Shown here: one piece after another, positions 33,510-37,707 of the stretch
How the letters are laid out: each line of letters opens with the position of its first letter
Position numbering within the stretch: the stretch's first letter is position 1
Source of the DNA: Armatimonadota bacterium
GTDB lineage: Bacteria > Armatimonadota > Fimbriimonadia > Fimbriimonadales > Fimbriimonadaceae
Length of the DNA: 64,000 nt
Reading direction: 5' to 3'
NCBI GenBank assembly: GCA_029781035.1
Contig: JAKOXK010000048.1
Span: forward strand, 1-64,000
Translations under genes and position numbers: made by a program
The notes under the pieces: model-generated
Database searches by the model: none
Told to the model about the DNA's origin: nothing
What the model saw: only the letters and a program-made list of their open reading frames with translations

Positions 33510-35225
33510 TCATGGACGATCGGTCGGGGCGATCTGCTCAGGCATAGGGCTCTTGTTCGGTGGCGGGGTTCTCTCCTCTACCCTCGTGCGGAACAGACGA
33601 CCGATGATCGGAATGTCTGAAAGGAACGGAACGCAAACAACACGAACCGTGCCGCCAAGCTGCCCGAGTCGAATCCTCTGGGTCTGTTTGCCAACCGGGT
33701 CAACCATGACCGTTCGTTGATCCAAGGTGACTGGCGTGAGCGGGTCGACCCTTGTGCCACCCAACCCACCGGGGCGAGACTTCGCTGTGCGGGCCCGTAT
33801 GCCCGACACCGGATGACTTCTGGTGGCCACGGATGGCGTGGTTCCCTGAACCCGCTGGCGAGAACGAGGCACGGACATGGTGACAGCGGGCACAGCTGGG
33901 GCCACCCCCCTGACCGCCACTGGCGCCTCCGGTGCGCGAGCGTCAACGACGGACTCGTTGGGCGGCAACAGTCGGCCTGGAGCCAATTGGGGCGCAGCAG
34001 CCGGTGCGGCTTGCTGAGGCGCCGGGGTCTCTTCCACGGGTGGAATCATGTTCCCCGGACGATCATGGGGCGGTGCCAACCGGGCTGCCGGAGGCAGTGC
34101 CGGCACTGAGGGTGCCGCCGATCTGGATCGCTTGCGGGCTCTCCCATCCCGTATCCGTGCAACGTCTGGCTTGGTGTCGACCGCTGGTGCCGGTGCCAAG
34201 ACCGGTGCGGGCGGGGCTGATGTGGCGGGCGTCGGGGCGACCTGCGGGGCTGGGCTCATGGGCGCTGTCGGCGCTTGCTGCATCCGTGCCGAGGCGCCTG
34301 CGACGGCGATCGTCGCTGACGTGATGCCCAGCGCCAACAGCAGTCCACTGGCCGTAACCATGCCTTGTGCTCGCGTTCCTAGGATCCGCTTGACGCGGTG
34401 TTCGAGTGTTCTATGACTCATGATCGTGACTCCCAGGGAGCGGACTAACCCCCGTGGCTTTCTGCAAAGGCGGGCAGTCGCGACGAGGTGTCCGGCGTAG
34501 TCCGTCGCCGGGACGCCTGCTGCGACCACCCTTTCGTCCGCCGCGAGTTCGGCCTCGTCCCTCAGTGCGCGCCTGAGGAGCCAAACAAGCGGATGACACC
34601 AATAGACCGCAGCCAAGACGTTGGCGAACGCCGTCCAGACGCAGTCAAACCGATTGACGTGTGCGAGTTCGTGCATCAGGACGGCACGCCTTTGCTCAGC
34701 GGGCCAGGAGCCGAACTCCTGAGGCAGCGAGATGACTGGCCTGAGCGCTCCAGTGACAAGCGGAACTGGGGCCCTGCCCAACACGAACCGCACCGGGACT
34801 CGGAGCCTCATGGTCTCCGCAAGTTCCATCCCTTCCGCCTTGAGCCACTTCGGTGTGTTGCCACGGCGCAAGGAACGGACCAGTCTTGCTCCCAAAACCA
34901 CACGTCCGAGCAGTACGAGGACTCCAAGCAGCCACAAGCCGGTCACAAGGGAGAGCCAGTCAATACTGACCGACGCAACAGCAGGAGTCCCCGAGGCTCG
35001 CTGCACACCCTCCGCAACGCAGGCCGGTGACTGGAGTTGGATCGCCACCCAATGAGGCACGAACGGCCCAACCAAGGCCACGAGCACTGCCAATGCGAGA
35101 GTCGCCACCAGCAATGCATGCCTGGCGCTTGGGGCCGACCTTCGTAGCAGGCCGACAGCGACAAAGCCGAACAACAATACCGATGTGACTTTGGCGACGA
35201 GGAGTCCAAGTTCAGGCTGACTCAA
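33510..35225 (-). CDS. BlaR1/MecR1-type M56 membrane metallopeptidase with secretin-like C-terminal motif
   Basis: This 571-aa protein has about four N-terminal membrane segments and a cytoplasmic M56 zinc site 'HELAHVNRFDCVW' (HExxH) with 'DEAELAADERVVAAG'. A further membrane helix near 'MVTASGLLLALGITSATIAVAGASA' precedes a long Pro/Ala-rich, low-complexity extracytoplasmic region. It should cleave the adjacent BlaI repressor when its sensor is stimulated. There is no penicillin-binding domain, so the signal is not obviously a beta-lactam. The last 40 residues contain 'VPFLSDIPIIGRLFR', like the end of secretin proteins. TTG start overlaps the blaI stop (TTGA). Confidence 0.88.
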   Translation of the reverse strand: MSQPELGLLVAKVTSVLLFGFVAVGLLRRSAPSARHALLVATLALAVLVALVGPFVPHWVAIQLQSPACVAEGVQRASGTPAVASVSIDWLSLVTGLWLLGVLVLLGRVVLGARLVRSLRRGNTPKWLKAEGMELAETMRLRVPVRFVLGRAPVPLVTGALRPVISLPQEFGSWPAEQRRAVLMHELAHVNRFDCVWTAFANVLAAVYWCHPLVWLLRRALRDEAELAADERVVAAGVPATDYAGHLVATARLCRKPRGLVRSLGVTIMSHRTLEHRVKRILGTRAQGMVTASGLLLALGITSATIAVAGASARMQQAPTAPMSPAPQVAPTPATSAPPAPVLAPAPAVDTKPDVARIRDGRARKRSRSAAPSVPALPPAARLAPPHDRPGNMIPPVEETPAPQQAAPAAAPQLAPGRLLPPNESVVDARAPEAPVAVRGVAPAVPAVTMSVPRSRQRVQGTTPSVATRSHPVSGIRARTAKSRPGGLGGTRVDPLTPVTLDQRTVMVDPVGKQTQRIRLGQLGGTVRVVCVPFLSDIPIIGRLFRTRVEERTPPPNKSPMPEQIAPTDRP

Positions 35226-35611
35226 CGATCCCGCTCCCTACGAGACTTCTCGATCAAATCCACCAAACGGTCAAGCTCGTCGATGGTCAGTCGCCGCTCT
35301 GAACTTGACAGCAGGCTCGCGACCGTCTGTTCGACTGAACCCTCGAAAAACGTCTTCACGAGACCGGAAAGGGCCGATGCGGCAGCCTGCTCCTTCGGGA
35401 CGGCGGGCCTGAAGACGTAACGCACCCCGTCCTGGCGATAGGAGACCCGACCCTTCTCACTGAGCACACGGAGCATGCCCCGAACCGCGTTGTAGTTCAG
35501 GTCCTCACCCAAGGCTTCTTGCACCTCCGCAACCGTCGCTTCGCCCAGCGAGTAGAGCGTGTCCATCACCTGCCGCTCCCGCTTGCTTAAGGGACCGTAT
35601 CCACCAGGCAT
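35222..35611 (-). CDS. BlaI/MecI-family repressor
   Basis: This 129-aa protein has a winged-helix domain 'LSKRERQVMDTLYSLGEATVAEVQEAL', 'NYNAVRGMLRVLSEKGRVSYRQDGVRYVF' and a C-terminal dimerisation helix region ('SSERRLTIDELDRLVDLIEKSRRERDR'). It is a dimeric DNA-binding repressor inactivated by proteolysis through the M56 partner encoded next (4-nt overlap). Two identical dyads over its own promoter suggest autoregulation. The AATAAT box 6 nt before the ATG makes the mRNA leaderless. Confidence 0.93.
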   Translation of the reverse strand: MPGGYGPLSKRERQVMDTLYSLGEATVAEVQEALGEDLNYNAVRGMLRVLSEKGRVSYRQDGVRYVFRPAVPKEQAAASALSGLVKTFFEGSVEQTVASLLSSSERRLTIDELDRLVDLIEKSRRERDR

Positions 35612-35626
35612 GCAAGAATTATTGCA
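35611..35626. promoter_or_regulatory. BlaI-type operator, site 1
   Basis: TGCAA-GAATTA-TTGCA overlaps the blaI start codon and -10 box. It has the same half-sites and 6-nt spacer as site 2, 31 bp away. Confidence 0.65.
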
Positions 35627-35646
35627 CAGAATCCCGCTATTTGCAA
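35618..35646 (-). promoter_or_regulatory. blaI promoter, leaderless type
   Basis: On the minus strand TTGCAA (35646-35641), a 17-nt spacer and AATAAT (35623-35618) are followed by 6 nt and ATG 35611. Confidence 0.7.
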
Positions 35647-35657
35647 TTTTTTTTGCA
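35642..35657. promoter_or_regulatory. BlaI-type operator, site 2
   Basis: TGCAA-TTTTTT-TTGCA covers the -35 box of the blaI promoter; it is identical in half-sites and spacing to site 1. Confidence 0.65.
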
Positions 35658-35852
35658 CGTTACGCATTCCAAGCACCGACCGTCCTTGCATTGAGGACTC
35701 GGACGACATAGCCAGACGACATCGTGCATTGTCTTGGCGAACCGACCCGTCAAGCCTCAAAGGGCTGGGACTCCCAGCGGCTCAAGAGGGGACGTGCTCG
35801 ACAGAAGAGTGGGACTCCTGGCTTGATCCGAATTGAACTAAGGAACCAGAAC

Positions 35853-37631
35853 ATGACACTCACGAACATGAAAGCAATGACGGTGACACTTCTAGCCGTC
35901 GGGCTGTGGTGCGTCGGCGGGTGCCAACCCGTACGCTATGTCCTCGATGCCAAAACGGAATGGGTCAGTGGCGTCCGCATGACACCGTACACCGAATACA
36001 GCTACTTCAAAGTAGACGCCACCGGGAGCAAGACCATACTGTGGCACGAGAGGCGTATGGAGGCATATGCTAGGCACTGGGTCTCGGAAACCGGAGCCCT
36101 ATGGGTGATGACGAAGCCCTTTATCGGCCCGGGTGGAGCGGGTGGAGTCTGGTACGGTGATCCCTCGGGTGGAGAAGCAGGGCAGTGGCCCCGATACGGC
36201 TTGTCCTCGCTCGTCGATGACGATCACGAAGCCAAGGGCTTGACCGGACGGACCGTGACGCTCAGGACGGGAATCGCCGACGAACTGATAGTGAGCAACC
36301 CGCGGGGCAAGGAGGCCCGTTTGATCGCTTTCAAACCTGCGAGTGGGTTGCCTGTACAGCACGTCCAATTCACTCGTGAGCCATCTCAAACGGCCGACTC
36401 GCCAGGGATCCTCGAACAAACGCTACGGGATCTCTCATACAAGACACCGAGCATACGGCAAGTCGGATGGTCGCCCGGAACGTATGAAATGGAGGCCGCA
36501 CGCACAACGCCAGGCGGCCCGCCACGGTTCTGGCTCCTCTCCGTGAACAACCCCGAGTCTGTCCGCAAGGGACTAGAGGGAACGATCGCCTTCGAGCACA
36601 TGTGGGCATCCAAACCCACTCTTCTCAAGTACACACCATCCGGATACCTCGTCGCCTTCGTCTTTGACGACACCAAGTCCCCCGGGACGGCGGTTCTGAG
36701 CGTGTTCGACCACTCGACCAAGAACTACACGGCCGATCTCCTCCAACTGGGCGGTTTTGCGTCGTCACGCGAGGCCAGAAGAAGCATTGACCTGGACCGT
36801 GGTGTCTCATGGTCGTGTCCCAGCTCATCCTGGATGACCCTCCAGGATCGGTACGACATCCTGTACGGTCGCGGTCATGAGACGCTTGATTTCTTCGACC
36901 GATCCGGCAAACGCTACGTACTCGATATTTCGACCGCGGACAACAGGAAATCGACTTATTCCTTCCGTGTACAAACCGGACTTCAGGCCCGTAAGCCCCT
37001 AAGTTTCCAGGACGAGGCTACACCGGTGGTCTGGCAACGAACGGCCAGTTCACCGCACGGCACGTTCCATGTGAGCGCCTCAAAGCGGGCATACAGCAAG
37101 TGCTACGCTGGTTGGACTGACGATCCAGTCTTCATCCTCCTCACTGCCGATCTGCCGGACAATGGAAGGACTACACGAGTCGAGGTCTGGAGCAGCACCG
37201 AATATGGTGACGTCTATCCAGCAGTGTCCGACAGTGGGCGCGTGTTCCTCTTGAGCCTCAACGGAGCTTCGGGCAAGGCCAGCCTTGGGCAAAGGGACCA
37301 CGCCACGATCCAAATCGGGGGTCCGGGCGCGCAGGGGATCGGCGGTCTCGAACTCCTTGGCCAGAACACGTGGGTCGACACGGGCGGAAGCTACTCGACT
37401 TGCGCAGAAGCGGTGCGAGGCATCAAGTGGGATCAGATGCGCATTGTCTCACGTGGAATCCTATCGACTCGGAACTATGACGGTTTACCCTTACCGGCAT
37501 GGAGCATCGAGGAGTTCACGATCCCCCAGGACAACGGTCGCACCATCCATGAGGCGATCGTCGGTGACAAGCTAGCACCCAAGAGGATTTTGCCAGACGG
37601 AAAGAAGGTCTTGGATCTACCCGAGGGGTAG
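35853..37631 (+). CDS. Lipoprotein of unknown function
   Basis: This 592-aa protein has a lipoprotein signal ('MTVTLLAVGLWCVGGC', Cys acceptor near residue 22 or 23). The long mature part is beta-rich with repeated 'D..G...V..' patterns that could be a propeller; no catalytic motif is recognised. ATG 35853 is supported by AAGGA 8 nt upstream; the open frame before it (from 35724) reads poorly. It ends immediately beside the tRNA-Cys gene on the opposite strand. It is divergent from blaI across about 240 bp. Confidence 0.75.
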   Translation: MTLTNMKAMTVTLLAVGLWCVGGCQPVRYVLDAKTEWVSGVRMTPYTEYSYFKVDATGSKTILWHERRMEAYARHWVSETGALWVMTKPFIGPGGAGGVWYGDPSGGEAGQWPRYGLSSLVDDDHEAKGLTGRTVTLRTGIADELIVSNPRGKEARLIAFKPASGLPVQHVQFTREPSQTADSPGILEQTLRDLSYKTPSIRQVGWSPGTYEMEAARTTPGGPPRFWLLSVNNPESVRKGLEGTIAFEHMWASKPTLLKYTPSGYLVAFVFDDTKSPGTAVLSVFDHSTKNYTADLLQLGGFASSREARRSIDLDRGVSWSCPSSSWMTLQDRYDILYGRGHETLDFFDRSGKRYVLDISTADNRKSTYSFRVQTGLQARKPLSFQDEATPVVWQRTASSPHGTFHVSASKRAYSKCYAGWTDDPVFILLTADLPDNGRTTRVEVWSSTEYGDVYPAVSDSGRVFLLSLNGASGKASLGQRDHATIQIGGPGAQGIGGLELLGQNTWVDTGGSYSTCAEAVRGIKWDQMRIVSRGILSTRNYDGLPLPAWSIEEFTIPQDNGRTIHEAIVGDKLAPKRILPDGKKVLDLPEG

Positions 37632-37707
37632 TGGAGGCGCCGAGCGGATTCGAACCGCTGGATGAGGGTTTTGCAGACCCTTCCCTTAACCACTTGGGTA
37701 CGGCGCC
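37632..37707 (-). tRNA. tRNA-Cys (anticodon GCA) with encoded CCA
   Basis: On the minus strand the gene starts GGCGCCG and ends CGGCGCC-T-CCA: a 7-bp acceptor stem, discriminator U73 (a cysteine identity base) and genome-encoded CCA. The anticodon stem AGGGT/ACCCT encloses CTGCAAA with anticodon GCA, and the T-arm has GGTTCGAATCC. The 3' CCA abuts the stop codon of the lipoprotein gene on the other strand. Confidence 0.97.

Follow-up and report, generated by a model that had tools for sequence, protein, structure and literature searches.

Two palindromes of the form TGCAA-N6-TTGCA lie just ahead of a blaI-like gene in the window (the whole 64,000-nucleotide stretch of Armatimonadota DNA that was analysed), and the question is whether they are operators of the repressor encoded immediately downstream. 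The gene (minus strand, 35222..35611) specifies a protein of 129 amino acids matching PF03965 (E 4e-26; 92 bits, cut-off 22.6), and is the only PF03965 gene in this genome. The top PDB matches of its AlphaFold2 model (mean pLDDT 75; at least 90 in the winged-helix part) are 1okr, 1sax and 1xsd, which have the MecI/BlaI fold, and residues N41, R44, G45 and R48 are located on the recognition helix (40-52). No in-frame ATG, GTG or TTG is found upstream of the ATG, and the next in-frame ATG (Met16) falls within the DNA-binding domain. The following gene (minus strand, 33510..35225), whose TTG start overlaps the blaI stop, encodes an M56 (BlaR1-like) membrane metalloprotease (PF05569, E 2e-26, 93 bits) with HELAH as its HExxH motif and a Pro/Ala-rich C-terminal part.

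On the coding (minus) strand the proximal operator (35611..35626; forward-strand letters TGCAAGAATTATTGCA) reads TGCAATAATTCTTGCA, its last base being the A of the ATG, and the distal operator (35642..35657; forward-strand letters TGCAATTTTTTTTGCA) reads TGCAAAAAAAATTGCA. The minus-strand order is ACG-TGCAAAAAAAATTGCA-AATAGCGGGATTCTG-TGCAATAATTCTTGCA-TGCCT. The 3′ half of the distal operator supplies five of the six bases of the predicted -35 hexamer, TTGCAA (minus strand, 35641..35646), itself a four-of-six match to TTGACA; the predicted -10 hexamer, AATAAT (minus strand, 35618..35623), lies inside the proximal operator and is preceded by TGC (35624-35626), forming an extended -10. Both hexamers were read from the sequence and are 17 bp apart. 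An earlier note on this DNA had placed the sites over the -35 box and over the -10 box and start codon, about three helical turns apart, and had remarked on a half-site unlike the TACA/TGTA of classical BlaI/MecI operators. These descriptions are borne out: the coordinates are right, the motif reads as given, and the starts are 31 bp apart, in agreement with three turns. The two sites had also been called identical in half-sites and spacer, which is true of the half-sites and the spacer length; the spacer sequences differ (GAATTA and TTTTTT).

The earlier note further suggested a genome scan for the motif, with a comparison of its frequency. Exact matches number two in the 3.42 Mb genome (96% complete), both at blaI, versus four for a reversed control pattern. 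With ten fixed bases and a genome of 3.42 Mb, approximately three isolated chance matches are expected, so that the count itself reveals no enrichment; one site alone says little, and the signal resides in the 31-bp pairing and the placement. Sites with one mismatch are fewer than those of the reversed control (46 vs 110), and 19 of the 20 inspected are within long open frames. A wider regulon in this genome was rejected on the basis of these inspected sites and of the lack of any further exact match. When G/A tolerance is allowed, this genome has a single 31-bp pair and only five of 291 genomes of the phylum have any, and the reversed control gives none. In three of the five (G000, G003 and G019) the pair is situated on the blaI start and promoter.

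A same-genus ortholog of 69% identity (L005/L047) has TGCAAAAAAAATTGCA, 15 bp and TGCAATAATTTTTGCATG, preserving the two dyads, their 31-bp spacing and the overlap with the ATG. A more distant relative (L021; 53% identity) has TGCAGATTTTCTTGCA, 15 bp and TGCAAAAATATCTGCATG, with TGCAA/TGCAG half-sites and the same spacing and ATG overlap, and G014/G156 possess a single imperfect dyad, TGCGAAAAACTTTGCA. The TGCAA class is small: two of its pairs are perfect, a third is nearly so, and the rest is this one imperfect site. The tRNA-Cys gene, at 37632-37707 here and at 1331-1406 in L005, is the direct upstream neighbour of blaI in the latter; in this genome a lipoprotein-like frame of 635 codons intervenes, which suggests an insertion or loss beside the tRNA gene. 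Divergent control of this lipoprotein-like gene (35724-37631) by the paired sites is unsupported, its likely start being about 200 bp from them and its place being taken by tRNA-Cys in L005.

Related repressors were collected as a clade of 171 distinct proteins scoring more than 110 bits to the clade profile, drawn from the same phylum and from records titled Acidobacteria/Bryobacterales, Gemmatimonadaceae, Polyangiaceae, Verrucomicrobiia and Pseudomonadales. Upstream of these 171 members, 5+5 palindromes peak sharply at a gap of 6 (158, against 25.2 ± 4.9 in dinucleotide shuffles); a gap of 4 is also well represented because A/T bases often lengthen the dyad inward. Dyads of the type TGYNR-N6-YNRCA number 199 in 130 of the 171 loci, where 1.15 would be expected from mononucleotide shuffles, and the remaining 41 members have no recognised TGYNR-type site. 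The commonest half-sites are TGCTA (61), TGCCA (23), TGCGA (16) and TGTTA (14), followed by a few others including TGCAA (4). TGCAA is one of a graded set of predicted half-sites (TGCTA, TGCCA, TGCGA, TGTTA) used by the clade. At many TGCTA-type promoters (e.g. L033 and L175) tandem dyads lie 18-19 bp apart, a layout unlike that of the 31-bp and 42-44-bp pairs.

Among all columns of the repressor alignment, operator type shows the highest mutual information over shuffled background with residue 45, followed by residue 41 (ranked by z-score). S41/A45 goes with TGCTA in 62 of 63 typed members, T41/T45 with TGCCA in 16 of 17, K45 with TGCGA in 7/7, and S41/T45 mostly with TGTTA (11/17); N41/G45, the residues of the present repressor, accompany TGCAA in both cases. 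To control for kinship, the helix columns were dropped before the tree was built, and only pairs whose paths on it do not overlap were compared; same-operator pairs had to be no closer than the 10th percentile of the distances in the different-operator set. Where the operators differ, so do residues 41/45 in 14 of 16 independent pairs; where the operator is the same, these residues differ in 5 of 25 (Fisher p 2.8e-5). This count of independent pairs rests on the best tree, the supported-branch sign tests having had too few pairs. Residue 45 is the top column in this comparison (0.88 vs 0.16). Positions 41, 44, 45 and 48 align with Lys43, Arg46, Thr47 and Thr50 of MecI, all of which are listed among its DNA-interacting residues (PMC2954202). 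Specificity would reside in half-site bases 3-5 (TG-Y-N-R), recognised mainly by helix residues 41 and 45, and the invariant Arg44 probably grips the conserved TG. The residue-base code is partial. Across phyla, base 4 is well predicted from residues 41/45 (59/59 and 41/42, nearly all of these being T and the position having been chosen post hoc), base 3 transfers poorly (4 of 16 non-majority operators), and prediction of the full operator type is little better than a majority guess (45/59 vs 43/59).

This covariation bears on the most durable of the alternatives, that the dyads belong to another regulator, for example one of GntR type favouring TTGCA/TGCAA dyads, with BlaI merely its target. 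The other two 31-bp pairs of the phylum (L237 in G066 and L238 in G098) speak for it: they are located on the starts of unrelated ATPase-like genes, with no BlaI in some 3 kb around them, and for this reason the motif alone is no proof of BlaI. However, the sites are found nowhere else in this genome, and the dyads of different clade members vary in step with the recognition-helix residues of BlaI itself, a pattern that a foreign regulator would not account for. We consider this alternative unlikely, and the L237/L238 pairs seem to be a system apart, probably a self-regulating element unrelated to this one. Around 1501-1547 of L237 and L238, which come from two other families of the phylum, a conserved TGGCAC lies between the paired TGCAA-type palindromes; the ATPase-like gene may be DUF4143-like.

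A second alternative is that selection has kept only a promoter (-35 TTGCAA, extended -10 TGCAATAAT) and that the palindromes are incidental. The promoter elements do match the sites well, and the match extends to the 130 loci, in which the best -10 begins at operator base 4 (offset 3), just past TG-Y, as in an extended -10. Hexamers resembling TTGACA are most frequent at a spacer of 17 (at least 5/6 matches in 38 of the 130 loci, and in no more than five at any other spacer). In all three members of the TGCAA class the distal dyad provides the -35, TTGCA[A/T/G]; in 8 of 16 of the TGCCA class the -35 is TTGGCA, the half-site of that class. What weighs against a promoter alone is that, by base counts, the mirror half of each dyad is as conserved as the promoter half and has no promoter role, and that relatives with 42-44-bp spacing carry full second dyads well upstream of the promoter. 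This explanation we regard as very improbable. That the dyads are RNA hairpins or terminators can practically be dismissed, for although they are inverted repeats, their arms are of 5 bp with an A/T-rich core, and the transcript is predicted to begin at or near the ATG, so that the RNA would contain no complete dyad.

Transcription usually begins about seven bases past the -10. Here the start point probably lies at or beside the A of the ATG, giving a predicted leaderless transcript, and the transcripts are probably leaderless too at the 26 loci in which the operator ends on the A of an in-frame ATG. With a 31-bp offset one half-site can serve as the -35 while the one after it forms the extended -10, and no such pair was seen in the TGCTA class, whose half-sites are unable to act as a -35. 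Helical phasing need not be invoked, since a 17-bp promoter spacer demands the same distance; as the sole explanation it fits the 31 bp, but relatives also use spacings of 18-19 and 42-44, and 31 is limited to the TGCAA class.

With these alternatives weighed, we are confident, short of certainty, that the BlaI-family repressor whose gene directly follows has these two sites as its operators and that the blaI-M56 operon represses itself. Such autorepression, already proposed in the earlier note, is supported by the retention of the pair in two relatives and by dyads of the same class upstream of 130 of the 171 related genes. With a repressor dimer bound to each of the 16-bp dyads, the blaI-M56 promoter would be blocked: the distal dimer would overlap the -35, and the proximal one would cover the extended -10, start point and ATG. 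Whenever BlaI ran low the operon would fire and restore it. By analogy with BlaR1/BlaI, an extracellular signal might activate the M56 protease, whereupon BlaI would be cleaved and the promoter freed. The sites, their rarity and conservation, the promoter fit, the residue-base covariation and the protease neighbour are observations; binding, repression, cleavage and signal we infer, the cleavage step being carried over from BlaR1/BlaI. One point against a BlaR1-like cleavage model is that the Asn-Phe site (MecI 101-102) is absent, the aligned residues being Ser99-Leu100 (alignment extended by eye).

The BlaI/MecI and BlaR1/MecR1 systems of Staphylococcus aureus and Bacillus licheniformis have a winged-helix repressor of the same family and predicted fold and, as predicted here, an autoregulated operon with an M56 protease and operators over the promoter. 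Their mec/bla operator consensus, RNATTACAWNTGTA..., is centred on TACA-NN-TGTA (PMC5341023), whereas in the present sites the specific bases are at the outer ends of the dyad (TGCAA-N6-TTGCA) and this core does not occur. Unlike the BlaR1/MecR1 systems, this locus is without a penicillin-binding (transpeptidase) sensor domain, Pfam finding in the M56 protein only M56 and a sub-threshold secretin-like stretch, and without a beta-lactamase or PBP2a-type gene among the four neighbouring proteins scanned. The switch would work as BlaI/MecI does and has the domain and fold of the family, but it departs from it in operator core, sensor domain and cleavage site. The copper repressors CopY/CopR share the family, the 16-bp dyad frame and the use of two operators, but differ in the bases recognised (RNYKACANNTGTARNY; PMC7253601), in their metal-binding Cys-X-Cys tails and in their copper target genes. 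Clostridium thermocellum offers a precedent for non-TACA BlaI operators: BlaI_0696 and BlaI_1845 have the motifs GTCTAT and GACTAT, as paired inverted repeats with very small self-regulating regulons (PMC8457756). Those operators differ from ours in half-site sequence and in a 5-nt gap, and in the passages of that study consulted we found no link of motif to particular residues.

A literature search for the TGYNR class, the residue rule or these half-sites in connection with BlaI found nothing relevant, most subscription journals being outside its reach. The operator pair is very probably real, a putative variant operator, judged by sequence, in a known BlaI/MecI-type switch; the sites are very probably those of the repressor itself and belong to a little-described class whose variable bases change with one or two repressor residues. 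We lean slightly towards the broader proposal of a large multi-phylum BlaI-M56 clade with a two-residue code (41 and 45 against bases 3 and 4) and operators that double as -35 and extended -10. Many bacteria of soil and water have BlaI-M56 pairs that carry the annotation of penicillinase regulators, but the TACA/TGTA motif misses the sites of this clade. Residue-based prediction of operators would allow regulons to be listed straight from sequence, and the residue rule offers a testable case of repressor paralogs shifting specificity without crosstalk. If the two-residue code is true, one or two substitutions could insulate paralogous switches within a genome.

An M56 gene follows blaI in all 20 related loci examined; all encode HExxH, and their C-terminal parts are widely different, which suggests that many different signals may feed into one core switch. 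The C-terminal 70 or so residues of the M56 protein of this genome resemble the secretin signature (VPFLSDIPIIGRLFR), scoring 20 bits with Pfam Secretin, which is below the cut-off; the same-genus ortholog L217 has no such stretch at its end. Three loci of the same bacterial family (L014, L017 and L018) encode another BlaI type with the recognition helix GYTTVLKLL or similar and carry TACGAA-N4-TTCGTA-type dyads upstream, a further operator class, and two same-genus family members of another type (L012 and L015) have CCTACA-NN-TGTAGG.
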